Below, in pieces: positions 17,119-31,999 of a stretch of DNA of 64,000 bases (position 1 is its first letter; each line of letters opens with the position of its first letter). The stretch lies in assembly GCF_009827635.1 (NCBI RefSeq), contig NZ_WTYW01000003.1:62001-126000 (forward strand), in the 5' to 3' direction. The translations under genes and the position numbers were made by a program. The notes under the pieces were generated by a model. That model worked only from the letters and a program-made list of their open reading frames with translations. It was not told the origin of the DNA and ran no database searches. The DNA is from Parapontixanthobacter aurantiacus (GTDB lineage: Bacteria > Pseudomonadota > Alphaproteobacteria > Sphingomonadales > Sphingomonadaceae).

Positions 17119-17982
17119 TCAGCCCTTTTGGCCGACCTGTCGGATCAGCCCTTCCTGCGCTGCACTCGCGATCAGCTTTCCGTCCCGCGTAAAAAACCGT
17201 CCGAACGACAGCCCCCGGGCGCTTCCCGACCATGGGCTCTCCGCGACATAGAGTAGCCAGTCATCGACGCGGAAATCGTGGTGGAACCACAGCGAGTGAT
17301 CGAGGCTCGTGTTCTGATAGCCCGGCGTCTGCCAGCTGACGCCATGCGGTCGCATGGCCGGGCCGAGCAGGTTCGAGTCCGAAGTGTGTCCCAACACCCA
17401 GCGATGAATGGCAGCATCGTCGGGCAGAGGTGCGGTAGGCTTGAACCATAACTGCATGGCAGGGTCCCCCTTCTCGCCTCCCCTGACATCGCCGAACCCG
17501 AATATGGGGCGCATTTCGATCGGCCTCGGGAAGGAACCGCGCGGAATGGGCGCAACGTCTTCAGGAGGGGGGACATCAGGCATTTCGATCTGGTGCGATA
17601 AGCCTTCTTCCGGGACCTGAAAGTTGATGCTGGCGCTGAGGATCGGCTTGCCGTGCTGCTCCGCGACAACGCGGCGGGTCGAGAAACTGCGGCCGTCCCG
17701 CTCCCGCTCCACACGGTAGAGGATCGGTTTGTTCTCATCGCCGGGCCGCATGAAATAGGCATGCATGGAATGCGGAATACGATCGTCCTCGACCGTCCCT
17801 TCCGTTGCCGACAGCGCTTGCGCCACGACCTGCCCGCCGAAAACCCGGCCGATCTTAACGGACAGGCGACGCCCCTCGAACAGGTTCGCGTCGATCCGCT
17901 CAACGCTCAGGAGATCGACGAATTCACGGACGTTCTGCTCCTCGTTCCTGTTACCAGAAGCGTCGTTCGTTTCTGCGTCCAT
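17119..17982 (-). CDS. tesB: Acyl-CoA thioesterase II
   Basis: Hydrolyses acyl-CoA to free fatty acid and CoA in the cytoplasm. 287 residues forming two hotdog domains: the first with RVFGGQVVAQAL and SMHAYFMRPGD (about 50-90), the second with WVLGHTSDSNLLGP and the signature TSLDHSLWFHHDFRVDDWLLY (split here for length, about 200-265), ending in GRFFTRDGKLIASAAQEGLIR. GGGAGGG just upstream supports the ATG at 17982 over earlier in-frame ATGs at 18003 and 18000. It is the first core gene right of the island and is divergent from the aldehyde dehydrogenase gene. Confidence 0.93.
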   Translation of the reverse strand: MDAETNDASGNRNEEQNVREFVDLLSVERIDANLFEGRRLSVKIGRVFGGQVVAQALSATEGTVEDDRIPHSMHAYFMRPGDENKPILYRVERERDGRSFSTRRVVAEQHGKPILSASINFQVPEEGLSHQIEMPDVPPPEDVAPIPRGSFPRPIEMRPIFGFGDVRGGEKGDPAMQLWFKPTAPLPDDAAIHRWVLGHTSDSNLLGPAMRPHGVSWQTPGYQNTSLDHSLWFHHDFRVDDWLLYVAESPWSGSARGLSFGRFFTRDGKLIASAAQEGLIRQVGQKG

Positions 17983-18228
17983 GCGATGCCCTCCCTTCAT
18001 CAATTATCGTTACATCGACGTACCGGTCGTTCCATGGACCCGCCGCCAAGCGCCTTCCTACTGGGTTCGACGCGAGACAAAGTCCAGACCGGAAACCCGA
18101 AATTGCTAATTGTCCATTATTCAGGATGGTCTCGCAACATCGTCGAGGAACCAGTTCGGAAGGCGGGCCCATGCCACGCGCGCACGATGACCGGTGAAAC
18201 GAACGCGGCTTATCTACGTTCGAAGATT

Positions 18229-19707
18229 ATGCCGACAACATACAGCAAGCTCGATCGCGTGTTCGTTGCCGGATCCTGGAAGGACGGCAACGGAGACGCT
18301 CTGAAGAACATCTCCCCATGGGACGAAAGCACCATTTTCGAGATGGCGGCAGCGACGAAGGACGATGTCGACGAAGCGCTCGCCGCCGCGGCCGAGGCCC
18401 AGCGCGAATGGGGCGCCCTGCCGCCGTCCGCCCGCGCGGCCAAGATGAGCCGCATTGCCGAAATCCTCGACGAAAGGCGCGAAGAAATCGCCGACTGGAT
18501 CGTCCGGGAAGTCGGCGGCACGCAGGTGAAGGCGGCGCTCGAATTGCAACTGGCGACCGACTTCGCGCGGAAGGGAGCGGTCTGGCCGTTCATGGTGGAA
18601 GGCGCGATCTTGCCGGAAGACATTCCGGGCAAAGAATCTCGCGTCTATCGTACGCCGGTCGGGGTCGTTGGCTTGATCAGCCCCTGGAATTTCCCGCTGC
18701 AACTTACTGCGCGAACGCTCTTCCCGGCCCTCAGTATCGGGAACGCCGTCGTCATCAAGCCTGCCAGCGATTCCATCGTGACGGGCGGCACCATCTTCGC
18801 TGCCATTTGCGAAGAGGCCGGCATACCGCCCGGCCTCGTCAGCGTCCTGCCCGGCTCGGGCTCGGAAATCGGTACCGCTCTTATCGAACACGACCTTACT
18901 TCTGTCGTATCATTTACAGGTTCGACCGAAGTCGGCCGGGGCGTAGGAAAGTCGGCGCTCGATGCGAACATCATCAAGCCCGTCGAGCTCGAACTCGGCG
19001 GCAACAGCCCCATCGTGGTGCTGTCGGACGCCGATCTCGAATATGCCGTCGAGGCAAGTGTCTGGGGCAAGTTCATGCATCAGGGCGAGATCTGCATGAT
19101 CGCGAACCGCATCATCGTCGAGGATGCCATGTACGACGATTTCGTCGAGGCCTTCGTCGAACGAACCCGGCAACTGCCTGTAGGCAAGCGCGACGATCCG
19201 GCTTGCTTCATCGGTCCGATCGTCAATCGCGACCAGTTCGAAAAGGTCACGCGACTGATCGAGCAAGCGAAGCAGCAGGGCGCGAACTGCGCCCTCGGCG
19301 GAGAACCTGACGGCCTGGTCGTTCCGCCGCATGTTTTTACCGATCTCGATCCGGACAATTGCTTGCTGACGACGGAAATCTTCGGGCCGGTCGCACCGAT
19401 CCAGCGCGCGAAGGACGAGGAACAGGCGCTCGAATTTGCCAATGCGACGACTTATGGCCTCTCCAGCTCGGTCTTTTCGCAGGACGAAGGGCGGGCGCTG
19501 GCCTTTGCCAAACGGATGCAGGCGGGCGTCACCCACATCAACGATCAGCCGGTGAACGACAGTCCGTTCTCGCCGTTCGGCGGTGTAAAGAACTCCGGTA
19601 TCGGCAGGTTCAACGGACGCTGGGCGATCGAGGCATTCACGACGACGCGCTGGATCTCGACGCAGCACGAGCAGCGGAAATTCCCCTTCAGCGCCGACGA
19701 TTTGTGA
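18229..19707 (+). CDS. NAD(P)-dependent aldehyde dehydrogenase (492 aa)
   Basis: Oxidises an aldehyde to the acid. The classic residues are visible: N154 in SPWNFP, general base E255 in ELELGGNSP, and catalytic C289 in HQGEICMIANR; the Rossmann part has VVIKPAS and GSTEVGRGVG. The ICM-x-ANR context fits the benzaldehyde/vanillin-type or related subfamily more than betaine aldehyde dehydrogenases, but the substrate is not set. The ATG at 18229 fits family N-termini; ATG at 18187 is possible, and neither has a strong ribosome site. It is followed after 14 bases by glutathionyl-hydroquinone reductase and then pirin, which suggests an operon dealing with aldehydes and quinones. Confidence 0.9.
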   Translation: MPTTYSKLDRVFVAGSWKDGNGDALKNISPWDESTIFEMAAATKDDVDEALAAAAEAQREWGALPPSARAAKMSRIAEILDERREEIADWIVREVGGTQVKAALELQLATDFARKGAVWPFMVEGAILPEDIPGKESRVYRTPVGVVGLISPWNFPLQLTARTLFPALSIGNAVVIKPASDSIVTGGTIFAAICEEAGIPPGLVSVLPGSGSEIGTALIEHDLTSVVSFTGSTEVGRGVGKSALDANIIKPVELELGGNSPIVVLSDADLEYAVEASVWGKFMHQGEICMIANRIIVEDAMYDDFVEAFVERTRQLPVGKRDDPACFIGPIVNRDQFEKVTRLIEQAKQQGANCALGGEPDGLVVPPHVFTDLDPDNCLLTTEIFGPVAPIQRAKDEEQALEFANATTYGLSSSVFSQDEGRALAFAKRMQAGVTHINDQPVNDSPFSPFGGVKNSGIGRFNGRWAIEAFTTTRWISTQHEQRKFPFSADDL

Positions 19708-19721
19708 GGAGATAACCGGAA

Positions 19722-20687
19722 ATGGGTTTCTTGAAAGACGGCGTCTGGCACGACGAATGGGATCACAATGACGAGGACACGGGCGCGTTCGAGCGGGACG
19801 AAAGCGCCTTTCGCAACTGGGTGACGCCCGATGGTTCGGCGGGTCCGACGGGCGATGGAGATTTTCGCGCGGAGCCGGGCCGGTATCGTCTATATATCAG
19901 CCTCGCCTGTCCGTGGGCGCACCGCGCGAACGTCGCCCGCCATCTGAAAGGGCTGACCGGCATCATCGATCTCGCCGTCGTTCACTGGCTGATGGTCGAT
20001 GGAGGCTGGTCGTTCCGGGACGGCAGTTGCGTGACGAAAGAGCCGGAAATCGACGCAGATTTTCTGCATCAGCTCTATACCCATGCCAAACCCGACTATT
20101 CGGGTCATGTGACCGTCCCCGTCCTTTGGGACACGAAGCGCAAAACGATCGTCAACAACGAAAGCGCGGACATTCTGCGGATGTTCGGAAGCGCCTTCGA
20201 CGATTGCGGGGCAAACGATCTCGACCTGTACCCTGAAGGTCTGCGTGACGAGATCGATCGTCTGAACGAGCGCGTGTACGACACGGTGAATAACGGTGTC
20301 TACAAGGCTGGCTTCGCGACCACGCAGGAGGCCTATGACGAGGCGGTGGGTCCGCTCTTTGATATGCTCGACGAACTGGAAGGACGGCTGAACGGAAAGG
20401 AATGGCTGGTCGGCGACCGGCTGACGGAAGCGGATATAAGGCTATGGACGACCCTGATCCGGTTCGACCCGGTCTATTACGTCCATTTCAAGTGCAATGT
20501 CCGGCGCATCCGGGATTACCCGAACCTCGCTGCCTTCACACAGCGTCTACTGGCTCTCGACGGGGTCGAGGAAACCGTCAATTTCGAACATATCCGGCGC
20601 CATTATTACGAAAGCCACAAGCAGCTCAATCCGAACGGCATCGTGCCGGCGGGGCCGGAACCCCTCGTGCCGGAGCCGGCTCAATGA
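19722..20687 (+). CDS. yqjG: Glutathionyl-hydroquinone reductase (Xi-class GST)
   Basis: 321 residues. It reduces glutathionyl-hydroquinones, releasing hydroquinone and glutathione disulfide. The catalytic C63 is in the signature CPWAHR, preceded by the long N-terminal region typical of this class (FRNWV, GRYRLYISLA). Later marks are VPVLWDTKRKTIVNNESADI (thioredoxin-fold end) and the helical domain with VGDRLTEADIRLWTTLIRFD and YYVHFKCN. GAGGAGATAACC lies just upstream of the ATG. The stop overlaps the pirin start (ATGA), so the two are coupled. Confidence 0.93.
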   Translation: MGFLKDGVWHDEWDHNDEDTGAFERDESAFRNWVTPDGSAGPTGDGDFRAEPGRYRLYISLACPWAHRANVARHLKGLTGIIDLAVVHWLMVDGGWSFRDGSCVTKEPEIDADFLHQLYTHAKPDYSGHVTVPVLWDTKRKTIVNNESADILRMFGSAFDDCGANDLDLYPEGLRDEIDRLNERVYDTVNNGVYKAGFATTQEAYDEAVGPLFDMLDELEGRLNGKEWLVGDRLTEADIRLWTTLIRFDPVYYVHFKCNVRRIRDYPNLAAFTQRLLALDGVEETVNFEHIRRHYYESHKQLNPNGIVPAGPEPLVPEPAQ

Positions 20688-21526
20688 GCGAACGACGGCT
20701 GCTATCGGTGCATAAGGCCTATCGCGAGGACATCGGCGATCTCGTGACGCGCCGCCCCTTGCCCGGACCAGGCCTAGAGCAGATCGACCCGTTCCTGTTC
20801 CTCAACCACCACGGCCCGCAGACCTATCCGCCGAACAATAACGGATTGCCGTTCGGCCCTCATCCGCATCGCGGGTTCGAAACCGTCACGTTCATTCTGG
20901 ACGGCAATCTCGCGCATCTCGACAGCAGCGGCGGCGAAAGCGTCATCGAGGCGGGCGGCGTGCAATGGATGACGGCGGGGCGCGGCCTCGTTCATGCAGA
21001 GATCTCACCCGACAGTTTCAAAAGCTCGGGCGGGCCGCTCGAAATCCTGCAACTCTGGGTGAACCTGCCTTCGCGGCTCAAGATGACGGAACCCCGCTAT
21101 CAGGGCATCGAAGCGACGGAGATACCGGAGAAGCACATATCTTCGGGCGTCGTTATGCGACCGGTTTCCGGAACGGAAGGCGCGCCAATCCGGTCGCTCA
21201 TGGACATAACGCTGGCGACCGTGGCTATGGAGGCCGGCAGCAACGCGTCGCTTAATGCGCCTGGTGGGCACACCGTCTTCTTCTACGTCGTGCGAGGTTC
21301 GTTAGATGCGGGCGGCGGCACCATCCCGGAACATCATCTTGCGCGCTTTGACGACGGCGAAACAATCGAAATTTCGAGCGAAAACGGCTGCCTGATCCTT
21401 TTTGGTCATGCAAAGCCGATCGACGAGCCGGTCGTCTCGCACGGGCCGTTCGTGATGAACACGCGCGACGAAATTATGGAAGCCATTCGCGATTATCAGG
21501 CAGGCAAGTTCGGCGAGATCGCCTGA
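20684..21526 (+). CDS. Pirin family protein (280 aa)
   Basis: Two-cupin protein. The metal ligands of the N-terminal cupin are visible: H60 and H62 in GPHPHRGFETVTF, H104 and E106 in GRGLVHAEIS. The C-terminal cupin (about 150-260) includes GHTVFFYVVRG. Some bacterial pirins act as quercetin dioxygenases, while others bind partner proteins, so the role is open. Its start overlaps the reductase stop as ATGA, and together with the aldehyde dehydrogenase it forms a likely three-gene stress operon. Confidence 0.92.
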   Translation: MSERRLLSVHKAYREDIGDLVTRRPLPGPGLEQIDPFLFLNHHGPQTYPPNNNGLPFGPHPHRGFETVTFILDGNLAHLDSSGGESVIEAGGVQWMTAGRGLVHAEISPDSFKSSGGPLEILQLWVNLPSRLKMTEPRYQGIEATEIPEKHISSGVVMRPVSGTEGAPIRSLMDITLATVAMEAGSNASLNAPGGHTVFFYVVRGSLDAGGGTIPEHHLARFDDGETIEISSENGCLILFGHAKPIDEPVVSHGPFVMNTRDEIMEAIRDYQAGKFGEIA

Positions 21527-21650
21527 CGTCGAAACCGGTGTGCTCGGCCAATCGCGCTAACTCTTGTTAACGGTCCTTGCTTTGCCGGAACAAGCCCCGG
21601 CGCGGCGTTGTTCGAGCAAGGTAACAGTCCCAATGTCCGGAGAGTTCCCC

Positions 21651-22958
21651 ATGCGCATCACCCTCGCGCTTCTTGCCCTGCTCACGCCCGCCGCGGCCCT
21701 CGCCCAAGCGGGTGCGGGCAGCAGCGAACCTTCTGCCGAGGAGGATCGTGGGCGAAAGGGCGTCGAGATCGTCGGTCACGTCCTTAAACCGACACCGCTT
21801 GATTGGACGCAGGAGCGCATGGACAGCCTGGCGCTGCCCGCGGGCTTCGCGATGAACGTCTTTGCCAAGGACCTTCAGAATGCCCGCATGATGCGAGTCG
21901 CCGACGACGGAACGGTCTATCTGACGCGCCGGGCGCAGGGCGACGTGATGATGCTCCGCGACACCGATGGCGACGGGATAGCGGACAAGCGTCAGGTCGT
22001 CGCGCAGAAGGAGGGGATGCACGGCATCGAGATCGCAGGCGATGCGGTCTACCTGATGACGGTGAACGAGCTGTACCGTGCGACGCGCATGGACGATGGC
22101 ACGCTGGGCGAGCTCGAACTCGTCGCCGATGGTTTCCCCGAAGCCGGCCAGCATCCCAACCGGATGGTCGTCATGGGACCGGACGGAAGGCTTTACATCT
22201 CGGTCGGTTCGACGTGCAATGCGTGCGGCGAGACCGACAAGGAGAACGCCACCATCGTATCGATGAACCCTGATGGCTCGGACCGGCGCATCTTCGCATC
22301 GGGCCTGCGCAATACCATCGGCTATGGCTTCGAGCCAACGACCGGCGCGGCCTATGGCTTTGATCACGGGATCGACTGGCTAGGCGACAACGAGCAGCAC
22401 GAGGAATTCAACCGGCTGATGGACGGCGAGCGTTATGGCTGGCCCTATGTCTATGCGCTCTCCCGATTCAACCCGCAGGACACTCCGCCCGACAGCAGCT
22501 TTTCGGAATACGCAGCGGGCAGCGTCGAGCCGATCGGTCTGCATACGCCGCATTCTGCGCCGATGCAGCTGGCGTTCGACAACAGGCGCGCTTTGCCCGC
22601 GCAATATCAGGGCGACGCCTTTATCGCATTGCGCGGATCGTGGAACCGGCAGCCTCCGTCGGGCTACGAAGTGCTGCGCGTCGATTTCGAGACCGGTCGA
22701 CCGGTCGGCATGGAGCCGTTCCTTACCGGCTTCCTGATGGAAGACGAAGAGAGCCCGACCGGCTGGGGCCATATGGGCCGCCTTGCCGGACTCGCGCAGG
22801 GGCCTGATGGTGCAATGTATCTATCCGACGACGATAACGGGATAATCTACCGGATAAGCTATGAAGGGCCGGGAGCGATGGAACGTCCGACGCCGCAATT
22901 CACCAATGCCGATGCCGAGGAATTGAACCTGGGGCTCGTCGAACAGAATGGCGGCTGA
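21651..22958 (+). CDS. PQQ-dependent sugar dehydrogenase / sorbosone dehydrogenase-like, exported (435 aa)
   Basis: Periplasmic beta-propeller of the glucose/sorbosone dehydrogenase family. The signal peptide MRITLALLALLTPAAALAQA starts at the ATG with GGAGAG upstream; an in-frame ATG at 21633 is less likely. Propeller marks include RVADDGTVYLTRRAQGDVMM, HPNRMVVMGPDGRLYISVGS followed by TCNACGETD, GLRNTIGYGF and GRLAGLAQGPDGAMYLSDDD. The Cys pair after VGS is common in the sorbosone dehydrogenase branch. Whether PQQ is bound is not visible from the sequence. It stands alone, converging on the ino1-YcaO operon with 16 bases between the stops. Confidence 0.88.
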   Translation: MRITLALLALLTPAAALAQAGAGSSEPSAEEDRGRKGVEIVGHVLKPTPLDWTQERMDSLALPAGFAMNVFAKDLQNARMMRVADDGTVYLTRRAQGDVMMLRDTDGDGIADKRQVVAQKEGMHGIEIAGDAVYLMTVNELYRATRMDDGTLGELELVADGFPEAGQHPNRMVVMGPDGRLYISVGSTCNACGETDKENATIVSMNPDGSDRRIFASGLRNTIGYGFEPTTGAAYGFDHGIDWLGDNEQHEEFNRLMDGERYGWPYVYALSRFNPQDTPPDSSFSEYAAGSVEPIGLHTPHSAPMQLAFDNRRALPAQYQGDAFIALRGSWNRQPPSGYEVLRVDFETGRPVGMEPFLTGFLMEDEESPTGWGHMGRLAGLAQGPDGAMYLSDDDNGIIYRISYEGPGAMERPTPQFTNADAEELNLGLVEQNGG

Positions 22959-22974: not shown

Positions 22975-23667
22975 TCAAGAGGTCTCGCGAACAAACCCCT
23001 CGTGACGCCAGGAGGATAGCGCGTTGCGCGCCGCCTCTACCCCTCCGAACTGAAAGCCGATCTGGCTTTCATAGGCGAGGGTAGCTTCCAGCTTGCGTGC
23101 ATGAGCTTCCTCGTCCAGCGCGACCCGATGGACGCAGGGAGGCGCTTTCTTCTCTTTCTGCGCGTAGGGATAATCCTCCCACAGAATGAGCGTCTGGTTC
23201 GTTGAAATCGCCTCCAGTGCCTCGCGCACAACGAGATGATCGACATGCCCGCCTATTCCGATGGGACCATATACGAGGTCGGGCCTGTAGGACGCGACCA
23301 GTGCGGCCAGTTCCTTTACAAGCGGCATGACGACGTCGTCTGTCAGGAGGCGCCCGTCGAACAGAGCTTCGGCGCTTTCGTACCCACGATGGGGCGCTTC
23401 GAGGAAATCGAGATGGATGGCTTTGACGTTCAGGATTGCGCAGGCGGCTTGGTCCTCCGCACGGCGTAGCGCCATGTAGTCGATCTCCGGACCCAGCCCC
23501 TTGTCCAGTTGGCATGCGAGAGCGAAGCCTCTCGGCTCGGCGGTATTCCCGGTAAAGCATGTCGCCACTGCAACGGCGTCGCCTGCTTCGCTATGACAGT
23601 AGAGGCATCCGCCTGCCGAAAAGACCGCGTCGTCGAGATGCGGAGAGATCGCCAGGACACGCGTCAC
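22975..23667 (-). CDS. PIG-L family N-acetyl-sugar deacetylase (230 aa)
   Basis: Zinc-dependent de-N-acetylase. The motif SPHLDDAVFSAGG (about 8-20) is the family's PH-x-DD metal/catalytic box, and GGHVDH (about 151-156) gives the second pair of His ligands. Relatives act on GlcNAc-inositol (mycothiol MshB), GlcNAc-PI, chitobiose or bacillithiol precursors. The start is a GTG overlapping the glycosyltransferase stop (GTGA), so it is the last cistron of the eight-gene operon. The pairing with an inositol-phosphate synthase and a GT4 enzyme makes a GlcNAc-inositol-type substrate the best guess. Confidence 0.88.
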   Translation of the reverse strand: MTRVLAISPHLDDAVFSAGGCLYCHSEAGDAVAVATCFTGNTAEPRGFALACQLDKGLGPEIDYMALRRAEDQAACAILNVKAIHLDFLEAPHRGYESAEALFDGRLLTDDVVMPLVKELAALVASYRPDLVYGPIGIGGHVDHLVVREALEAISTNQTLILWEDYPYAQKEKKAPPCVHRVALDEEAHARKLEATLAYESQIGFQFGGVEAARNALSSWRHEGFVRETS

Positions 23668-24875
23668 AGGAGGTGCGGCTCTGTCCGAAAACGGCAATTG
23701 TCGTAGATTGGCAGATCGGGGTCGAACGGTTCGGGCGCACGGGAGCCGGAGACCTCCGCATAAATCTCTGTAATCATCCGGCCGACAACGGTCCAACTAT
23801 AGGTCGCGCGGCATTCGGCAAGCGCCGCGTCGGCGAGATGCTGGCGCGCGCCGCGATCATCGATCAGCTTTTGGAGCGCCCGCGCCTGCGCCGCGACATC
23901 GCCGGGCTCGACCAGAAGTCCGTTCTCACCGTCGCGCAGGCAGTCGGATACGCCGACGGCGTGGCAGGAGACGATCGCAAGTCCGCTCGCCATCGCTTCG
24001 AGGATCGTGTTGGAAAACCCTTCGGCGTATGTCGGCGAAACGAAGATTTGATGCTCCCGGTAGATCTGCGGCACGTCCTCATATTCTGCATAGCCGGTAA
24101 AGACGATGTGGTCCGACAAACCCTTTTCGCGGACCAAATCCTTGGCTGGCTGGAGATCCGGCCCGATGCCGGAGATCGTTGCGCTCCAAGAGCCGGTCAG
24201 CCCGCTGGCGGCCTCGATGAAGTCCAGCACGCCCTTCCGGCTGTCGACGCGTCCGTGGTAAAGGATACGGACGGTTTTCCCTTCGCCCAGAGTTCCGGGC
24301 GTGAAGCGGGTCGTGTCGACGGCCCCCGGCACGAAGGTAAAGCGATCGAGCGAGGTACCGAGGCGCTCATGCACTTCTTCCGCGAACGATTGCCCTCCGA
24401 TCAGCACCGCATCGGCATGATCGAGAACGCGAATCATCGCCTGCCGATGCGTTTCGCAGCACGAGCCGACCCAGTGACCGTCGCCGCCCTGAATGGAGAC
24501 GACGACCGGCAAGCCCAGCTTCCGACCCGCCAGCAGGGCAGCCCAACCCGTCGGATAGCCATATTGGGCGTGGATCACGTCGAAGGGCGTTCGCTCGTGT
24601 TCCACCACGATCGTATCGACCATCGTGACGATGTCGCGCTCGAAGTCCCCGTTCTCCTGCTCGCCGGTCTGCTCGAGGCCGATGACGCGCACGCCTAGCA
24701 CCTCCGGAGGCGGACCGCCCCCGTAAACGCCTTTTCCGAAAGCATCGCTGCGATACTGGCTGATCATCGTCACGTCGTGTTCTTGCGCGACGAGTTGCCG
24801 CAAGAGATTGATGGCGTAGATCGACATGCCACTGATTGCCGGGAAGAAACGGCGGCTGACGAAACATACCCTCAT
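23664..24875 (-). CDS. GT4-family glycosyltransferase (403 aa)
   Basis: Transfers a sugar from a nucleotide sugar with retention. Two Rossmann domains: the acceptor side begins MRVCFVSRRFFPAISGMSIY and includes FDVIHAQYGYPTGW; the donor side has LYHGRVDSRKGVLDFIEA, GYAEYEDVPQIY and the E-x7-E box in YAEGFSNTILEAMASGLAIV. It resembles MshA-like and related GT4 enzymes, with no residue that fixes the acceptor. ATGA overlap with the gene before and GTGA overlap with the deacetylase after it place it inside the operon. It would glycosylate the product of the upstream enzymes. Confidence 0.88.
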   Translation of the reverse strand: MRVCFVSRRFFPAISGMSIYAINLLRQLVAQEHDVTMISQYRSDAFGKGVYGGGPPPEVLGVRVIGLEQTGEQENGDFERDIVTMVDTIVVEHERTPFDVIHAQYGYPTGWAALLAGRKLGLPVVVSIQGGDGHWVGSCCETHRQAMIRVLDHADAVLIGGQSFAEEVHERLGTSLDRFTFVPGAVDTTRFTPGTLGEGKTVRILYHGRVDSRKGVLDFIEAASGLTGSWSATISGIGPDLQPAKDLVREKGLSDHIVFTGYAEYEDVPQIYREHQIFVSPTYAEGFSNTILEAMASGLAIVSCHAVGVSDCLRDGENGLLVEPGDVAAQARALQKLIDDRGARQHLADAALAECRATYSWTVVGRMITEIYAEVSGSRAPEPFDPDLPIYDNCRFRTEPHLL

Positions 24876-25705
24876 GCCGGGACAAGCTCCTTCAGAAAGG
24901 CGATGCTTTCCGGAACCGCTTGATGGGCCCGGGGGCTTTCCCGCGACAATTCGACGGATACGAGACGATCGAAGCCGACCTCTTCCAGTGCATGAAGGAC
25001 GCTTCGCACATCCATGTCGCCTTCGCCGAACGGCAAATGGACGTGAACGCCCGTCTTCATATCCTCGATCGCGACGGTGCCCAGATGTTCGGAATATTGG
25101 CGCACCGCGTCGGCGGGATCGATATCCTGACTGACGATGCAATGGCCGGTATCGAGGGCGAGCTTGAGCCGGGGGTGCCGGGCCTGCACCGCCTCCCATT
25201 CGCCGCAAGTCTCGACGAGCATTCCCGGCTCCGGCTCGAACGCGGCATCGACACCGACATCTTCCGCGTGATCCAGAACCTCGCTCAGCGCCTCGTGCAG
25301 CCAATCGAACGCCTGCTCCTTCGAAACCTGCTCTTTGAGAACACCGGTCCAGAAACTTACCGCCTCGGCATCCCAGATTGCAGCGATGTCCAAGGCGCGC
25401 TTAAGAAATGCGATCCGTCGGCCTCGCCCTTCTGCGTCCGGAGACAACAGGGTCGGTTCATGCTTGTCGCGAGGGTCGAGCAGGAAACGCGCGCCCGTCT
25501 CGATGATAGCGCCCAGTTGCAAATCGTCGAGCAGCCGCCCCACGCGTTCCGCTTCGCCCTGCCAGTTCGCTGCGAACGGGTCACAGTGATGATGGTCGAG
25601 CGTTATGGCGACGCCATCATAGCCGCTATCCGCGATCAGCCTGATGGCATCGTCGAGCCGGTGATTGGCTGCACCATTGGTGTTGTAGGCAAAGCGCAGG
25701 GTCAC
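24872..25705 (-). CDS. Sugar phosphate isomerase/epimerase-type TIM barrel (277 aa)
   Basis: AP_endonuclease_2 / xylose-isomerase-like barrel. The metal-site strands are visible in order: the EPEPGMLVE segment (about 160), LALDTGHC (about 185-192), and VHVHLPFGEGDMD (about 223-236), with a late VSVELSRESP. This superfamily includes inosose isomerases and dehydratases (IolI, IolE), hydroxypyruvate isomerase and the EboE-type proteins. With an inositol-phosphate synthase and a Gfo/Idh gene in the same operon, an inosose-type substrate is plausible but not shown. The start is GTG, overlapping the YcaO stop as GTGA. Confidence 0.85.
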   Translation of the reverse strand: MTLRFAYNTNGAANHRLDDAIRLIADSGYDGVAITLDHHHCDPFAANWQGEAERVGRLLDDLQLGAIIETGARFLLDPRDKHEPTLLSPDAEGRGRRIAFLKRALDIAAIWDAEAVSFWTGVLKEQVSKEQAFDWLHEALSEVLDHAEDVGVDAAFEPEPGMLVETCGEWEAVQARHPRLKLALDTGHCIVSQDIDPADAVRQYSEHLGTVAIEDMKTGVHVHLPFGEGDMDVRSVLHALEEVGFDRLVSVELSRESPRAHQAVPESIAFLKELVPA

Positions 25706-27207
25706 GCCGCCTTCCTTTCCGAGGCTGCCGCAGCATGATGCGCTTCTGGTTCACGGTAGAGCGGATAGAGCGGTCCGACGAGCCTGTCGGCTAGTTCTGT
25801 ATCGAACATGGGCTGGCCGCCGAACCGGTCGAGGGCTTCGGGTGTCAGGCGAACCGGCTCCAACCCCTCGCCATCGCCGTCAAAACGAATGAGCGGGCTG
25901 TCCATTTCCATCAGCTTGCGCGTGCCGCGTTCGCCTATCCGGTAGTAGCTCATCGTCTCGACTTCCATGCCCGGAACGATCAGCTTGACTGTCGCGACCG
26001 GGCATTCGCTAGGCGTCATGTCGACATACAGAACGTCGAAGCCCGCATCCTGCACCTTCTCTATCGCGATTTCCCCACGGTCGCGAAAACCCTCGCACGG
26101 GGTGTTCGGAAGCGTGTCGAACGGCTTGCGCCTGTTCTCGGATAGCATGTTGTCCGACAGCCAGCCGCGAATGTCCGCTGCTTCGCGCGATTGCCAGTCG
26201 ATCATCGCGTCGAGCGCGCGGCGGTCCGAACTCTTTGCCGCTCCGCCGCTTTGGCCAAGGAAGCGGTCGACATAGCCCTTGGGACTGAGGCTGCGCGTAT
26301 TCGCATCGTTCCCATGTGCATAGGCCTTGCGAGCACGACTGGCCGCATATTCGGCCAGCGCCTTTTCCAGCGCCGCCATGCGGTCCGGGTGGCAGGCTTC
26401 GCCGCAACTCGAAACCATGATCGGTTCCGCCGGTTCACCGCCTTCGTCCACGCCGACGCAGTAGATGTTCGTAAGCCCGAATTCGTCCGTCGCGAATTTG
26501 GGGATCGGACGAATACCCGCCGCTTCGTATTTCGCCAGGAGGTTCGCAGCATCGTCGGAAAGCTCATCGGGAAGATCGAGGGCTATGCCGCGGTCGAGCG
26601 CGCGGAAGAGCAATCCGTTTCCATCCCGCTGAAGGATTTCGCACAGCCCATGACCAACGGCGAAATCGCGGTCCGGCCCTGCCCCCATCCCGTTCGAGAT
26701 GATCGTCGTGAAGGGCTTGTAACCATCCGATAGCTCAGTCGAATTATAGGCTGCGAGGTCGATCGGAACGAGCACGCCCGTCCCGTCTGCGTGACGGATG
26801 GCCTCGACCCATTCGAGCCTCGTATCGCGATCGACGGGCGAGCCTGCGGGCAGGCATAGTGTCAGCGGATCGGCGATAGCCCGCTCACCCACCGAAACGA
26901 GTATCTCGTTATAGGAACCGCGTGTCTTCTTGCGCTGCGAAAGCGAAAGGGCGGGGAACGCCATCTCCGCGATCTCGCCCATCGCGCCGAGGATCGCCTG
27001 CCCCTCATCCACTCCGTACCCAACGCCGTATGGCATGATGCCATCGAGCAGCGGCTCGTTTTCGGGGAAGAGAGCGACGATCCAGACAGGTATTCCAACG
27101 CGATCGATGGGGTCGATGGGAAAGGCGACGATCTCTCCCTTCGGAAAGGCATCGAGATAGGCGCGGGCGGCGTCCGGCAGGTCTGCGGGCAGGCCATTAC
27201 GGTTCAT
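25702..27207 (-). CDS. YcaO-domain protein (501 aa)
   Basis: YcaO enzymes use ATP to phosphorylate amide bonds and so make azolines, thioamides or amidines. Visible family marks: VDEGQAILGAMGEIAEMA (66-83), SNGMGAGPDRDFAVGHGLCE then ILQRDGN (171-197, the glutamate-rich ATP-binding helix), and VLYVDMTPSECPVATVKLIV-PGMEVE (392-416). The Pro-rich tail of azoline-forming YcaOs is absent, and no E1-like partner, TfuA or precursor peptide is seen nearby. The ATG at 27207 has AAGGAG upstream and overlaps the preceding stop (ATGA). It sits in the middle of an operon of sugar and inositol enzymes, which is unusual for this family. The substrate may not be a peptide. Confidence 0.82.
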   Translation of the reverse strand: MNRNGLPADLPDAARAYLDAFPKGEIVAFPIDPIDRVGIPVWIVALFPENEPLLDGIMPYGVGYGVDEGQAILGAMGEIAEMAFPALSLSQRKKTRGSYNEILVSVGERAIADPLTLCLPAGSPVDRDTRLEWVEAIRHADGTGVLVPIDLAAYNSTELSDGYKPFTTIISNGMGAGPDRDFAVGHGLCEILQRDGNGLLFRALDRGIALDLPDELSDDAANLLAKYEAAGIRPIPKFATDEFGLTNIYCVGVDEGGEPAEPIMVSSCGEACHPDRMAALEKALAEYAASRARKAYAHGNDANTRSLSPKGYVDRFLGQSGGAAKSSDRRALDAMIDWQSREAADIRGWLSDNMLSENRRKPFDTLPNTPCEGFRDRGEIAIEKVQDAGFDVLYVDMTPSECPVATVKLIVPGMEVETMSYYRIGERGTRKLMEMDSPLIRFDGDGEGLEPVRLTPEALDRFGGQPMFDTELADRLVGPLYPLYREPEAHHAAAASERKAA

Positions 27208-27912
27208 AGGGGGTGTCTCCTTACCTCGGGCGGGCGCGACAAGGCCTCGTCCAGTATCTCGACGGCCTTCGCCGTACCGATTTCGGGGGCATGCTCGAAC
27301 GGCGTCAGGACCGCTTCGAAATCGAGCGATGCGACGACTTCGCGATAGCGGGTCAAGGCCATGAAGCGCCAGGTCGATGACCGCCCCTCCGCCAGCGCGA
27401 GCGGGATCGGCTCGCCAGTTCTCGGCTGCTCGCCCGTTTGCATTCCACAGCGGATCGACCCAGCAGGCGTAAAGGATACGGATGGCAATGGGGCGACCGA
27501 GTTCCCCCTTTTCGACGAGTTCGGCGATACATTTATGAGCAGGATGATGGCGTTGATCGAACGCCGTGCCGTAGACGATGCCCGACCTCTCGACCGCCTC
27601 CGCCATGCGCTCTGCATCCTCAAGGCTGGCGGCGATGGGTTTCTCGCATAACACCGCCACCCCCGCCTCCGCAGCGGCGATAACCGCATCCGCGTGAGCA
27701 TCGTTCGGAGTAGCGACGTAAATGATGTCGCATTCCTCGGCTTCGAGGAGTTGCTCGACATTCGAATAAACGGATATGCCATCGTCTTCGGACGCTTCAT
27801 CGCCCGTCATCGCCGGGTCGGCGACCGCGACCAGCGTTCCGCCGGCCTCCCGGATAGCCGGGACCATGAAGTCCCGTGCGACCCAGCCATAGCCGACGAT
27901 ACCCCAACGCAT
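27204..27912 (-). pseudogene. Gfo/Idh/MocA oxidoreductase with internal out-of-frame deletion
   Basis: From the ATG at 27912 the frame encodes a normal NAD(P)-binding half: GIVGYGWVARDFMVPAI, YVATPN, CEKP with K91, then the beginning of the C-terminal domain up to GGGAVIDLALHGLD (residue 187). Coding quality then jumps to another frame, which reads TRYREVVASLDFEAVLTPFE and ends KAVEILDEALSRPPEVRRHPL with its TGA overlapping the YcaO start. Only about 236 codons remain where family members have 320-390, so about 100 codons are missing at about 27350 and the junction is out of frame. As it stands, the first frame reads on without a stop into YcaO and could make a 736-residue fusion. Relatives include inositol 2-dehydrogenase. 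Confidence 0.7.
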
Positions 27913-29030
27913 TACCACCGCTCCGGCAAATCGACGAGCCGACGGAGCCGTACGGGATCGCTGTACGGAACGTCCTCGTCCCGCTTCGCCCACAAGGAAG
28001 CACGGGCATATTCCTGCTCGTAACGCGACGAAGGCCAGTTCGCCTTCCCCTCTGTTTCCGACAGCAATGGGTTGGCCACAAGTTGAGCATCGTTCGGCGG
28101 CATCGTCAGGCCATTTGCAAGAGACCTGGCATCATCGCCGGAGTAGCCCTCGACGACCGACCATGCTTCGAGCCTGCCGTCTTCCGCCCAGTCGCAGTTT
28201 GCAGGAGCCTCTGCGGTATGGAAAGCCCGCAAAAGTTCCCGCTCGTCATAGACCCGTGCATCGCTGAAAAGCTGCTGCCATTCTTCGGCCGATCGGGCCG
28301 GTCCCAGCGCCCCGCCAGCTACGTCGGCATTGTGCAGGTGGCCGACCGTCAGCACGCCTTCGTCCGCCGTAATTGCCCGCATCGCAGCAGCGACCTTCTC
28401 CTGCTCCGGCAGGAAGTAGAAGGCATCGTGGCACATCACGAGGTCGTAGCGCTCGTCGCAAACCGGCCACTCGCTAGCAGCATCGAAAACGAGGTAACTG
28501 GCTTCGGGCGCAATCCATTGCTTTGCGAGCCAGCATTTCGCGAACACGATGTCGGCTCCCGTGCAATGCACACCCAGCCGTCCGAGTTCGCGCAAGTAAT
28601 GACCGATTCCGCAGGCGAGTTCGAAAGCCGTGTCGGGCGAGTTCCAGTGCGCCTCGATTAGCGCCAGCCCGGCAAGATAGGTCGGATCGCTCCAGCGATA
28701 GGCGAAGTAATCAGCCACCGGTCCGAGCTTGAGAAGTGCCATCGCCTCGCGCAGCGTCAGTTCGTCCCGCATGCGAACCAGTTGTCGACAGTCCTCGATG
28801 CTGGCGACAGGACCGGTCCACCATTCGTCCTGATCGGTCAGAAGCTGCGCAGTCGCTTCATCAGCATCACCGGCGTCGAGTGATGCGAGAACCTTTCCGA
28901 CGAGCTCCTGCCGGTCACGGCGAAGATAGGGAATTCCGCCGACAATCGGCCAGCGTTCTCCCGATGCAGCGAGCGAGTGCGGCGTATCTTGCGCCAGGAA
29001 GGTTCCGCTCGTCGGAGACAGCAGGTTCAT
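27912..29030 (-). CDS. SAM-dependent methyltransferase (372 aa)
   Basis: Class I methyltransferase with the SAM motif AFELACGIGHYLREL (135-149), acidic GAD near 158 and the post-motif DLVMCHDAFYFLPEQEK (about 197-213). The N-terminus (about 18-40, HSLAASGERWPIVGGIPYLR) looks like a Trm112-type ribbon that has lost its cysteines. A C-terminal extension of about 100 residues (EGYSGDDARSLANGLTMPP) is unfamiliar. ATGA overlap with the HD-like gene before and a one-base TAATG overlap with the Gfo/Idh gene after. It probably methylates an intermediate of the operon's product. Confidence 0.8.
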   Translation of the reverse strand: MNLLSPTSGTFLAQDTPHSLAASGERWPIVGGIPYLRRDRQELVGKVLASLDAGDADEATAQLLTDQDEWWTGPVASIEDCRQLVRMRDELTLREAMALLKLGPVADYFAYRWSDPTYLAGLALIEAHWNSPDTAFELACGIGHYLRELGRLGVHCTGADIVFAKCWLAKQWIAPEASYLVFDAASEWPVCDERYDLVMCHDAFYFLPEQEKVAAAMRAITADEGVLTVGHLHNADVAGGALGPARSAEEWQQLFSDARVYDERELLRAFHTAEAPANCDWAEDGRLEAWSVVEGYSGDDARSLANGLTMPPNDAQLVANPLLSETEGKANWPSSRYEQEYARASLWAKRDEDVPYSDPVRLRRLVDLPERW

Positions 29031-29920
29031 GCGAGACCCGCCTGCGTCAGGATCTCGTCGTGCAGCGGTTTGACCGGACCGTCATGAACGAGGCCATATT
29101 CCTCGATGACTGTGTCCATCGTGACTTGCGCGCTAATTACGTGCTGTTCGATCTCCAGCACGCGGTCGATGACGTCTCCCACGTGGAAGGCGTGGGCTTC
29201 GGCGGTTTCGCTGCCGCCGATCGGTTCGATTGCCTCACGCATCTGTCCCTGCAACCCGTCACCAAGCTGCGCGAACGCCATTTCGCGTGAATGTTCGATC
29301 ACCCTGTCGAGCGCGTCGCCGAGCAAGATCTCACCCGAATAACCACTGTCGGGCATGGCGGCACTGTGCAGGTGATGGGCCATTCCGGCGAGGAAGACCG
29401 GGACGTGGTCCGCATCCTCCCATCCCGCTGCGATGACGCCATAGACGGCGACGACGAGACTATGCTCTGCATGGTTTTCCGTCGGGGCCAACATGATCCG
29501 CGGCTTGCCGGGACAGGTGACACCGGCGCGGGGCTGCCGGACCAGGGCATCGACGAAGGGCGGCACGTTCCCGATCGTCGGAGCGCCCCTCGCCAGATGC
29601 TCGCGCAATTCCGCTGCAAGCCCATCGTCGATTGGCCCGGCTATCTCATCGAACGACTTTTCGAGGACCGCTACCGCTTCAGGTTCCTCAAGGCCCAGCT
29701 GGCGAAGCTTTCGCAGGTCGAGATCGCCGAGGCGAGCGGCCGCAAGGGCTGCCGCCGTGACCCGGTTGCAGACTTCCTCGGCAGCCATTCCCGACACCAG
29801 CCCCGACCAGACCGAGACAAATAGTCGCTCTGCTATCGAGCCGGAGCGGTCGGCGGAATGAATGCGTTTGAGATCGCCCAGCTCTCGGAAAAGCGGGAGC
29901 GCCTCAGAGGACAAACTCAT
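29027..29920 (-). CDS. HD-like putative metal-dependent hydrolase (297 aa)
   Basis: Tentative call. The region NHAEHSLVVAVYGVIAA, VFLAGMAHHLHSAAMPDSG and ILLGDALDRVIE (about 145-225) has His residues spaced like an HD phosphohydrolase, though with HH where HD is usual. The N-terminal half is helical and unknown to me. A phosphatase step is needed if the inositol phosphate made by the first enzyme is to be glycosylated free, and no other phosphatase is in the operon, so this protein is a candidate. Both ends overlap neighbours by four bases (ATGA). Confidence 0.5.
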   Translation of the reverse strand: MSLSSEALPLFRELGDLKRIHSADRSGSIAERLFVSVWSGLVSGMAAEEVCNRVTAAALAAARLGDLDLRKLRQLGLEEPEAVAVLEKSFDEIAGPIDDGLAAELREHLARGAPTIGNVPPFVDALVRQPRAGVTCPGKPRIMLAPTENHAEHSLVVAVYGVIAAGWEDADHVPVFLAGMAHHLHSAAMPDSGYSGEILLGDALDRVIEHSREMAFAQLGDGLQGQMREAIEPIGGSETAEAHAFHVGDVIDRVLEIEQHVISAQVTMDTVIEEYGLVHDGPVKPLHDEILTQAGLA

Positions 29921-31101
29921 GACGGGACGGTTTCTTCGAGCCAGCGATCGAGTTGCGCCTGCTGTTCTGCAAAGCCGTGAATGGGCATTGTGCCGTTGCT
30001 TGTCTGCGGAAGCTTGAAGAAAAGGCCGAGTTCCTCGCGCACTCCGCCATCGCCGCGCTTGGCTGCAAGATCGAGGCAGCGGGCAATCTCGATGGCGAGA
30101 GGCGCGGCGAGGATGGAGTCCTTGCAGAGGAAATTCAGCTTAAGCTGCATCTTCTGCCCCATAAACCCCGTGAGATCGACGTTGTCCCAAGCCTCCTTGT
30201 CGTCGCCGCGCGGGGGATAGTAATGGATCATGATGATGTGGTTCTCGACCTTGTAGCCGAGGATCTGGTCGAGCACGCTGCCCTTCGTTCCGAGTTTCGA
30301 TTGCAAGGACTGCGGATCGTCGAGCGCGAGGCCGTCTGAGTTGCCGAGAATGTTCGTCGAGAACCAGCCATCTACGTGAAGCGAGCGATCGCGAAGCGCC
30401 GGTGCGATGACCGTTTTCATGAAAGTCTGGCCCGTCTTGCCGTCCTTCCCGGCAATCGGCACGCCCCGCTCGGCAGCGAATTCGGCAAGCGGAGCGACAT
30501 CCGCTGCGACGGAAGGCGTGAAGTTGCCATAGGGCGTATCGGCGTCGATGGCCGCATAGGCATAAAGCATGGCGGGGCTGATTTCGGGGTCGTCTCCGTC
30601 GAGCCCCTTCTCGAACGAACCGCGATCCTTCATGCACTCGGCATCTGCGCTGGGCGTTCTTTCGGTCGAGGCGAGGTTGAGAACCACGACGCGGTCCAGG
30701 TTCCTCTCTTCGCGAAATTGTTCGAGGTCGTCCTGAATTTGTCCGATGGCGGCGCGGTGACCGTTCGCCATCTTGTTACTTCCGTCGATATTGGCGCAAT
30801 GAGCCGTGCTGCCGACGGCAGGCCACGGCTTCATATCCTTCAGCGCCGATGCGCCGTTCGACAATTCCTTTTCGCCGATCACTCCGTGGCGAGTCGCACA
30901 GGTGCCAAGGTCATCGTCCGAGAGGTCCCAGCCGCCAAACTCGATGTCGCGGTAGGAGGCCATACCGGAAATGTCCCGGTCAGCAAGCGGCAGTCCCGAT
31001 AGATCGTTCGACCCCGCCTTGATCATTTCTATCCCGGCAATCGCGGTAGTCGAAACAGCGCCCCCCACTCCGATTACAGCTACTCCCAAACGCTCTGCCA
31101 T
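29917..31101 (-). CDS. ino1: Inositol-3-phosphate synthase-like protein (394 aa)
   Basis: Converts glucose 6-phosphate to inositol phosphate with NAD. The Rossmann start GVAVIGVGGAVSTTAIAG is at 6-23. The catalytic half is well kept: GKDGKTGQTFMKTVIAPAL, WFSTNILGNSDGLAL, IHYYPPRGDDKEAWDN, FMGQKMQL and CKDSILAAPLAIE, which are the family's lysine- and substrate-binding blocks. GAGGAG six bases upstream of the ATG at 31101 decides the start. It is the first gene of the eight-cistron operon. It is closer to the short prokaryotic class than to the 500-residue eukaryotic one. Confidence 0.88.
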   Translation of the reverse strand: MAERLGVAVIGVGGAVSTTAIAGIEMIKAGSNDLSGLPLADRDISGMASYRDIEFGGWDLSDDDLGTCATRHGVIGEKELSNGASALKDMKPWPAVGSTAHCANIDGSNKMANGHRAAIGQIQDDLEQFREERNLDRVVVLNLASTERTPSADAECMKDRGSFEKGLDGDDPEISPAMLYAYAAIDADTPYGNFTPSVAADVAPLAEFAAERGVPIAGKDGKTGQTFMKTVIAPALRDRSLHVDGWFSTNILGNSDGLALDDPQSLQSKLGTKGSVLDQILGYKVENHIIMIHYYPPRGDDKEAWDNVDLTGFMGQKMQLKLNFLCKDSILAAPLAIEIARCLDLAAKRGDGGVREELGLFFKLPQTSNGTMPIHGFAEQQAQLDRWLEETVPS

Positions 31102-31241
31102 GATTATCTCCTCGTCCACCGGCAGACATGCGCGGCGGCTTGAAGCTCAACGGGAGGTCGTTCCGGAGGTTCGCTTATTTCGCGACAAACTAATTTATAA
31201 TAGCAGGCCGCGTTACATAGATGCATCGCGGCGGATATTTC

Positions 31242-31257
31242 AGTGACTTATATCACT
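31242..31257. promoter_or_regulatory. Perfect Crp/Fnr-type operator upstream of the ino1-YcaO operon
   Basis: AGTGA-CTTATA-TCACT is a perfect five-base inverted repeat with a six-base centre, the geometry of Crp-family sites (TGTGA-N6-TCACA). It overlaps the stop codon of the Crp/Fnr gene at 31253 and lies about 140 bases before the ino1 start, so it can serve the operon. A possible -10 (TATAAA on the minus strand, near 31194-31199) lies about 50 bases downstream of it. Confidence 0.6.
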
Positions 31258-31999
31258 TACCGCCCTCGGGGAGCCAATCGATCGCGACGTGGCTATGGCG
31301 ATCGCGAAAATCGACCATCTTGCCGAGGCGCTCGACATCGGTGATGCGGATCACCTTTCCGTCGCGCTCGACAAGGCCCGTATTTTCCAGCGCTTTCAGC
31401 GTCCTGTTCACATGCGCTTTTGTGAGCCCGACCGCATCGCCCAGATCCTGCTGGGTCAGCGGCAGTTCGAAGGTCGCGCCTTCGACCCCGTCGATAATTC
31501 GCAGGCGCGACCGGATGTCGAGCAATAGCGTCGCGATCCGCGTCATGCCGTCGGTCCTGCCGACGGAGGTCAGGCGATCCGCCATCGCGACATGCTCGGA
31601 CGCAGCGACCCCGTAAAGAAGCGCTCCCAGTCGCGGTTGGCTAGCGAACAGGCGCCCGAGGGCTTCTCTCGGAAAGTGGTAAAGCGAGCACTCGCTGACT
31701 GCGGTCAGCGTCGCCGCGCTCATCCCCCATGCGATCGAGAAGGTCGTGGTCAGATCGCCGACGAAATAGAAGCGGAGAATTTGCCGCCCACCGTCGCGCA
31801 GGCTGGTCGAACCATGCAGCCAGCCTGAACGAACGAGGTGGACGTCCGACGTCGGCTCCCCTTCCCGTATGACGGCGGTCCCGGCCGGATAGACCCGTTC
31901 GTGCCGTTCGAGCATCCGAAGCGCATCACGTTCCGAATAGGTCAGGTCGAGATACTGGCCGAGCCGGTTCTCGAGCGGATTTGCCGACCTGTCGTTCAT
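31253..31999 (-). CDS. Crp/Fnr-family transcriptional regulator (248 aa)
   Basis: The N-terminal cyclic-nucleotide-binding-like barrel (about 30-145: YPAGTAVIREGEPTSDVHLV, GRQILRFYFVGDL) is followed by a dimer helix and a winged helix (FELPLTQQDLGDAVGLTKAH then VNRTLKALENTGLVER, about 180-215). There is no N-terminal cysteine cluster for an iron-sulfur centre, so it is not an oxygen-sensing Fnr; the cAMP-contact residues are also not clearly kept. It is on the same strand and directly upstream of the ino1 operon, with a perfect Crp-type site between them, so it likely regulates that operon. Confidence 0.88.
   Translation of the reverse strand: MNDRSANPLENRLGQYLDLTYSERDALRMLERHERVYPAGTAVIREGEPTSDVHLVRSGWLHGSTSLRDGGRQILRFYFVGDLTTTFSIAWGMSAATLTAVSECSLYHFPREALGRLFASQPRLGALLYGVAASEHVAMADRLTSVGRTDGMTRIATLLLDIRSRLRIIDGVEGATFELPLTQQDLGDAVGLTKAHVNRTLKALENTGLVERDGKVIRITDVERLGKMVDFRDRHSHVAIDWLPEGGK

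Follow-up and report, generated by a model that had tools for sequence, protein, structure and literature searches.

A conserved nine-gene cassette joining a YcaO enzyme to inositol and amino-sugar enzyme classes, and its truncated copy in Parapontixanthobacter aurantiacus

The window analysed here, a 64,000-nucleotide stretch of the Parapontixanthobacter aurantiacus genome (positions 62,001-126,000 of contig C3; genome 2.9 Mb, 99.99% complete), carries a minus-strand run of genes, from 31,101 down to 22,975, in which a YcaO-domain enzyme is accompanied by an Ino1-like synthase, an HD-fold protein, a methyltransferase (MT), a partial Gfo/Idh oxidoreductase, a TIM barrel protein, a GT4 glycosyltransferase and a PIG-L protein. 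We find that these genes belong to a real and conserved cassette, ordered Ino1-HD-fold-MT-Gfo/Idh-MBL-fold-YcaO-TIM barrel-GT4-PIG-L in relatives, and that no description of this nine-gene set occurs in the open-access literature searched, a scope outside which most subscription journals fall. We see an even chance that its product is a small soluble inositol-containing amino-pseudodisaccharide, whose amide, rather than that of a ribosomal peptide, YcaO would activate with ATP. An earlier note on this DNA had proposed an eight-gene operon pairing YcaO with inositol, glycosyltransferase and deacetylase enzymes for such a metabolite; that core idea holds, whereas the gene count and the supposed intactness of the window copy do not.

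The grouping of these genes exceeds what chance would give. A YcaO query against 199 genomes of the family returned 14 matches at E 1e-3, 11 of them strong; ten of the strong ones, the window included, lie in genomes with the cassette and one in a genome (G083) with YcaO alone. The HD-fold protein, used as an independent bait, was found full-length in exactly the ten cassette genomes (10/10 versus 0/189; Fisher p 5e-17) and as a fragment in G019. Scanning 84,980 species genomes identified 221 YcaO relatives, of which 80 were retained and examined, and gene order was the same in 77 of these 80 loci (69 running from Ino1 through PIG-L and eight cut by contig ends), with the MBL-fold gene present in 34 of the 77. 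Their hosts are Erythrobacter-like bacteria, Sphingomonas, Polymorphobacter, Caulobacter, Acetobacteraceae, Beijerinckiaceae and Methylobacterium; some genomes occur twice under different locus identifiers (L017/L032, L018/L035, L019/L041, L020/L065, L023/L060 and L064/L168). The neighbours thus co-occur with this YcaO clade in a fixed order, as the earlier note had anticipated, yet four loci carry YcaO without the cassette.

Within single groups the distribution is patchy. Of 385 genomes sampled from the class, only three, that of the window included, gave a match at E 1e-20. The G478 family has YcaO in 28 of 248 genomes, and all 12 loci fetched from it contain cassette genes, several being cut by contig ends, with G665 lacking an adjacent Ino1 and G690 lacking PIG-L; in the G542 family (6/82 genomes) the full set of nine is present at all six loci, the HD gene being split at one of them. 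Copies reside on plasmids in Methylobacterium aquaticum and M. bullatum (with no MBL-fold gene beside the cassette), in Roseomonas haemaphysalidis (all nine genes) and, in another phylum, in Hymenobacter volaticus (Bacteroidota; without MT, and with Gfo/Idh and GT4 split). That the cassette is a horizontally spread gene set forms part of our best explanation and is held with the same evenly balanced confidence. A member of the MBL family was also found away from the cassette in each of the eight Methylobacterium genomes tried, at 43-48% identity and with scores far under those of cassette MBL-fold proteins, and is not used here as support; it was absent from the one Beijerinckiaceae metagenome-assembled genome tried.

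Pfam matches bear out the gene classes named for the window. The Ino1-like myo-inositol-phosphate synthase (29917..31101; PF07994 190 bits, PF01658 116 bits) starts at the ATG at 31101 or possibly at a GTG at 31119, has 7nwr as its nearest solved structure (E 6.8e-79) and is 70-80% identical to its counterparts in the family cassettes. It is followed, all on the minus strand, by the HD-fold protein (29027..29920), the class I S-adenosylmethionine-dependent MT (27912..29030; PF08241 38.6 bits), the N-terminal part (about residues 1-187 of 330) of a Gfo/Idh/MocA oxidoreductase (27352..27912; PF01408 97.9 bits), YcaO (25702..27207), a xylose-isomerase-like TIM barrel of IolO/IolE/epimerase type (24872..25705; PF01261 132 bits), GT4 (23664..24875; PF00534 113.5 bits) and a PIG-L/LmbE de-N-acetylase-like protein (22975..23667; PF02585 67.9 bits). 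Overlaps had been claimed for every junction, and six are confirmed, each of four bases or one: ATGA at 29917-29920, 29027-29030 and 24872-24875, GTGA at 25702-25705 and 23664-23667 (the latter containing the GTG start of PIG-L), and TAATG at 27910-27914 between MT and Gfo/Idh. The supposed overlap between Gfo/Idh and YcaO is instead a deletion scar.

This scar is where the window copy departs from its relatives. All nine other family cassettes have a complete Gfo/Idh gene (330-332 aa), then an MBL-fold gene (271-330 aa) and then YcaO. In the window, by contrast, Gfo/Idh retains only about 187-190 recognizable residues and meets no stop ahead of YcaO, with which it lies in frame, so that its frame continues into YcaO as a single 809-codon open frame (736 aa counted from the ATG). 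The ATGA preceding YcaO is the stop of an MBL-fold remnant (27204..27350, minus strand; the final 48-56 codons or so), which lies in a frame other than that of Gfo/Idh. Comparison by blastn with L031-L034, L017, L018 and L024 placed the junction at 27348..27352 (no strand); the ~1.09 kb that is missing extends from Gfo/Idh codon ~187 to the final ~50 MBL codons. With one relative's MBL-fold protein as query, the only match in the window genome was the remnant, with no other MBL of this type. The intact cassette protein has an N-terminal zinc-ribbon-like CxxC..CxxC motif and matches Pfam Lactamase_B with 24.5 bits in L020 and below the cut-off in L017.

With two genes truncated, the window copy may not make the product. 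Even so, the dN/dS values of its remaining genes against two relatives (0.10-0.27, with synonymous sites near saturation) are indicative of purifying selection, and since they are similar to or below those between the relatives (0.18-0.45), gene loss would be recent or the gap an assembly fault; the copy has probably been recently broken or mis-assembled. Recurrent decay of the cassette was considered and rejected, damage being the exception: among 104 loci surveyed, in which some genomes are represented twice, 87 have the eight core genes clear of contig ends, and just four of these (the window, L024, L169 and L172) contain a truncated or split gene, some of which may be sequencing errors. 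Beyond these, the Hymenobacter locus (L117) has seven of the eight core genes, two of them split, and G765 has a stop within YcaO that the survey did not flag. The fragment in G019, which belongs to the genus of G104, is a 55-residue HD-like piece (L179:11225-11389), possibly all that is left of a former cassette; no other cassette gene was found in that genome, where the GT4 match was generic (27%).

Directly upstream of Ino1 lies a Crp/Fnr-type regulator (31253..31999, minus strand; PF13545 64 bits, PF00027 51 bits), relatives of which recur at Sphingomonadales cassettes (28 of 113 loci, and 20 of 46 representative loci by clustering), and we infer that it is part of the cassette system. On the opposite strand beside the operon (21564-22958, 19722-20687 and 20402-21526) are glucose/sorbosone dehydrogenase-like and glutathione S-transferase-like proteins and a pirin.

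The 501-aa YcaO protein is a member of its superfamily by Pfam match (PF02624, 170 bits), fold and conserved acidic and basic residues. Its AlphaFold model (pLDDT 91.8) fits best to the single-domain MjYcaO (6peu; Z 31.7, root mean square deviation 3.2 over 364 residues), ahead of LynD and TruD. E78, E81, E190, R194, E286 and R291, which we take to be ATP ligands, are invariant in a 38-row alignment, and the motifs E[IC]LQRDGN and PG[ML]EVETM are common to the whole clade. Azol(in)e-forming YcaO enzymes have a proline-rich C-terminus (PxPxP); the cassette proteins end in YPLYREP.AH and a short tail, and the proline-rich end is absent. Equivalog models for RiPP (ribosomally synthesized and post-translationally modified peptide) enzymes scored far below their cut-offs, which supports the earlier note's reading: no thiazole/oxazole-modified microcin or methanogen cut-off was reached (SagD 95 of 219 bits, methanogen marker 87 of 365). 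A separate observation concerns the G010 cassette (L025:9814-11316), whose YcaO has only 45% identity to other cassette YcaOs, against 60-77% for the neighbouring genes, a difference that would fit an exchange of YcaO within the operon.

It is nonetheless conceivable, if unlikely, that this YcaO modifies a peptide or protein which the sugar enzymes then decorate, be it a glycosylated RiPP or a housekeeping protein such as uL16 or McrA. The nearest solved structures, 6peu and LynD, are of peptide or protein modifiers; YcaO clusters of the TfuA type often have glycosyltransferases nearby (PMC8120280), and the Escherichia coli YcaO modifies uL16 (PMC13063428). Near the cassette, however, the small open reading frames of 140 flanking stretches of ~1-1.2 kb (69 loci and the window; more distant precursors were not searched) formed 118 clusters, none of which was common to Methylobacterium/Beijerinckiaceae and other lineages; on this point the earlier note, which had seen no peptide, is upheld. 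The nine cassette proteins include no E1-like protein, TfuA or RiPP recognition element (RRE), while the flanks were covered for such partners by eye, through the best 40 conserved clusters, rather than with TfuA or RRE models. Finally, we know of no role for Ino1 or Gfo/Idh in known RiPPs.

For a sugar substrate of YcaO, a pathway can be sketched from the families. Ino1 would supply inositol phosphate, to which GT4 would attach an N-acetylhexosamine; the HD-fold protein would take off a phosphate, and PIG-L would deacetylate. Oxidation and epimerisation of one ring might fall to Gfo/Idh and the TIM barrel protein, and MT would add a methyl group. YcaO would convert an amide or acyl-amine into a thioamide, an amidine or an oxazoline-like ring or, less likely, act by hydrolysis, and the MBL-fold protein might hydrolyse or transfer a group. 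The genes, their families, order and co-inheritance, and the damage in the window, are observed; what each enzyme does, in which sequence the steps follow and what they yield are predicted from family membership. YcaO enzymes that make azolines, thioamides and amidines are described in PMC11002830 and PMC8120280, and a YcaO structure, 7u58, bears a title that assigns it ATP-dependent peptidase activity; with several chemistries known, the bond formed cannot be chosen from sequence.

For the HD-fold protein, Pfam gave no match in the window, and HD_3 matched weakly in two of three relatives scanned, with L017 alone over the cut-off (22.8 versus 22.5 bits); its predicted fold (AlphaFold, pLDDT 91) does resemble 1xx7 and HDDC2 (Z 10.6) and YfbR (Z 9.7), values of Z below about 13 being such as a common helical arrangement may give. 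The HD doublet of HD-domain phosphohydrolases is absent, an invariant HH (H182, H183) occupying its position in a 49-row alignment (correspondence judged by eye). A MIOX-like diiron oxygenase was considered from the many invariant His and Asp residues and set aside, the fold comparison putting HDDC2 and YfbR first; MIOX was not among the 50 fold entries shown, which excludes nothing.

Could the same enzymes build a polar head group or surface glycan, such as an inositol lipid, a PIG-type glycolipid or an exopolysaccharide unit? PIG-L and GT4 proteins do take part in phosphatidylinositol and glycan pathways, and on the Roseomonas plasmid (L116:16269-17831 and 17819-19940) PIG-L shares four bases with a GT2-type gene that is annotated mdoH. 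Yet the nine genes include no CDP-alcohol transferase, flippase, polymerase or undecaprenyl-phosphate transferase (a result that covers the cassette and not export genes at other sites), and YcaO has no known role in such pathways. We rate a glycan or lipid product as improbable.

A soluble sugar fits the four loci at which YcaO stands without nearby cassette genes (three Microvirga species and G083). All four contain a solute-binding protein, two sugar-type ABC permeases (MalF, MalG) and a Polysacc_deac_1 protein (e.g. L099:11986-12723 and L178:13539-14186), these neighbours being 45-64% identical between Microvirga and G083, and at G083 the run of same-strand genes also takes in a MalK-like ATPase and a TonB-dependent receptor. 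The deacetylase-like gene is absent from the remaining 108 loci of the comparison and was found in none of 248 G478-family genomes (E 1e-15, with no known positive as control and no importer-locus Microvirga among the genomes listed). Searches of the YcaO-only genomes found the HD-like protein in none of four (E 1e-5, again with no known positive as control) and GT4 matches of a generic kind (26-37%); Ino1, TIM barrel, PIG-L and Gfo/Idh were absent from the fetched stretches, to which the search for them was confined. In the YcaO tree, the G083 protein is sister to that of the G010 cassette (100/100), whereas those of Microvirga fall among the YcaOs of cassettes from a different genus (97/99), so the importer-linked YcaOs come from two branches. 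The G010 cassette itself (L025) has MalK/MalF/MalG-like genes directly after PIG-L; apart from YcaO, its eight genes are of the usual type. These loci suggest that the substrate or product of YcaO can be taken up, and importer-linked YcaOs would then act in the same way on a small molecule that can be imported.

Importers could also mean that the enzymes break down an imported inositol glycoside, by catabolism or salvage. Gfo/Idh, TIM barrel and PIG-L proteins and sugar ABC importers are frequent in sugar catabolism, the YcaO-only loci adjoin importers, and the title of 7u58 would accord with a hydrolytic YcaO. Against this, Ino1 and the GT4 transferase indicate synthesis, and L025 is the only viewed cassette with MalK/MalF/MalG-like genes beside it (other importers were not searched); we regard breakdown as quite improbable.

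Several points weigh against an amino-pseudodisaccharide made with YcaO. To our knowledge, the characterised YcaO proteins act on peptides or proteins only, and the ATP-driven amide activation of YcaO chemistry is known from no other substrates. MBL and MT are not in every cassette. The solitary YcaO-like genes of Microvirga and G083 could serve another substrate. The usual deacetylase motif is TFDDG, and the Microvirga deacetylase-like protein reads AFYNGY at that position; proteins bearing it may not deacetylate, or may be catalytically different. The breadth of the GT4, PIG-L, Gfo/Idh, TIM barrel and MBL-fold families makes guesses of the inositol acceptor and N-acetylhexosamine donor, and the pathway as a whole is a prediction from genes.

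The hosts hint at a setting for the product. Spore photoproduct lyase (SPL; PF20903) occurs in 16 of the 199 family genomes, 7/10 with the cassette and 9/189 without it (p 5e-7), or 6/9 versus 5/87 by genus (p 3.6e-5), in a test that uses one marker family and handles kinship by collapsing to genera only. The window genome has no SPL, and in family genomes the gene is not adjacent to the cassette (~195 kb apart in G055, for example). Four of 113 loci do include an SPL2-type gene a few kilobases from the cassette or YcaO (L099 and L103 from Microvirga, L057 from Sphingomonas and L116 from Roseomonas), both Microvirga loci with UvdE as well; in L116 two SPL genes lie on the opposite strand beyond mdoH. 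Record titles of hosts mention leaf, lichen, air and glacier sources (uncounted). The product is possibly tied to sunlight exposure, by correlation with this one marker. A bolder and rather doubtful proposal is that the cassette encodes the first non-peptide YcaO pathway, mobile from Alphaproteobacteria to Bacteroidota, and that its product is an amino-inositol disaccharide with an amidine, thioamide or oxazoline, protective under sunlight or desiccation stress; bacteria that do not make it would take it up through loci of their own, composed of a sugar ABC importer, a deacetylase-like gene and YcaO. YcaO acting on a sugar, if true, would widen the known chemistry of these enzymes. The cassette is frequent in leaf, air and lichen bacteria (Sphingomonas, Methylobacterium), and its nine genes, its hosts in these two genera and the importer loci render the product directly findable.

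Among known systems, the mycothiol pathway likewise unites an inositol-phosphate synthase, a GT4 transferase and a PIG-L de-N-acetylase, and bacillithiol biosynthesis shares the last two classes. One might imagine a low-molecular-weight thiol, with YcaO or the MBL-fold protein replacing the cysteine ligase: mycothiol synthesis begins with enzymes of the Ino1, GT4 and PIG-L classes, and the GT4 protein reaches 80 bits against MshA and 85 against BshA. We consider this very unlikely, and membership in either pathway was rejected, as all their equivalog models fall far below cut-off: 39.7 of 638 for Ino1, 79.6 of 462.5 for MshA and 23.2 of 224 for MshB, and 85.1 of 273.7 for BshA, with 24.3 of 182.5 (BshB1) and 18.7 of 195 for the BshB models. 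As the earlier note had observed, these classes come without MshC and MshD types, which, like BshC, are absent among the nine cassette proteins (the rest of the genome was not searched), and the Hymenobacter locus has its own bshB1 adjoining the cassette. The cassette, whose hosts are Alphaproteobacteria and Hymenobacter, goes beyond the mycothiol classes in its YcaO, Gfo/Idh, TIM barrel, MT, HD-fold and MBL-fold proteins, and inositol is expected where bacillithiol has malate.

With the YcaOs of RiPP pathways and of McrA and uL16 thioamidation, the cassette enzyme shares the fold and the invariant Glu and Arg at their usual positions but differs in its partners, which are sugar and inositol enzymes, with no partner protein or precursor found near. 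A Roseomonas mucosa YcaO cluster, which may or may not correspond to the cassette, is read as azoline-type in PMC8776678. A further parallel, by description and not by sequence, is kasugamycin (D-chiro-inositol, kasugamine and a glycine imine). According to PMC8869731, its amidine-type group arises via a glycine oxidase candidate and the cluster shows no deacetylase, and the molecule, like the product proposed here, combines inositol with an amino sugar bearing such a group.

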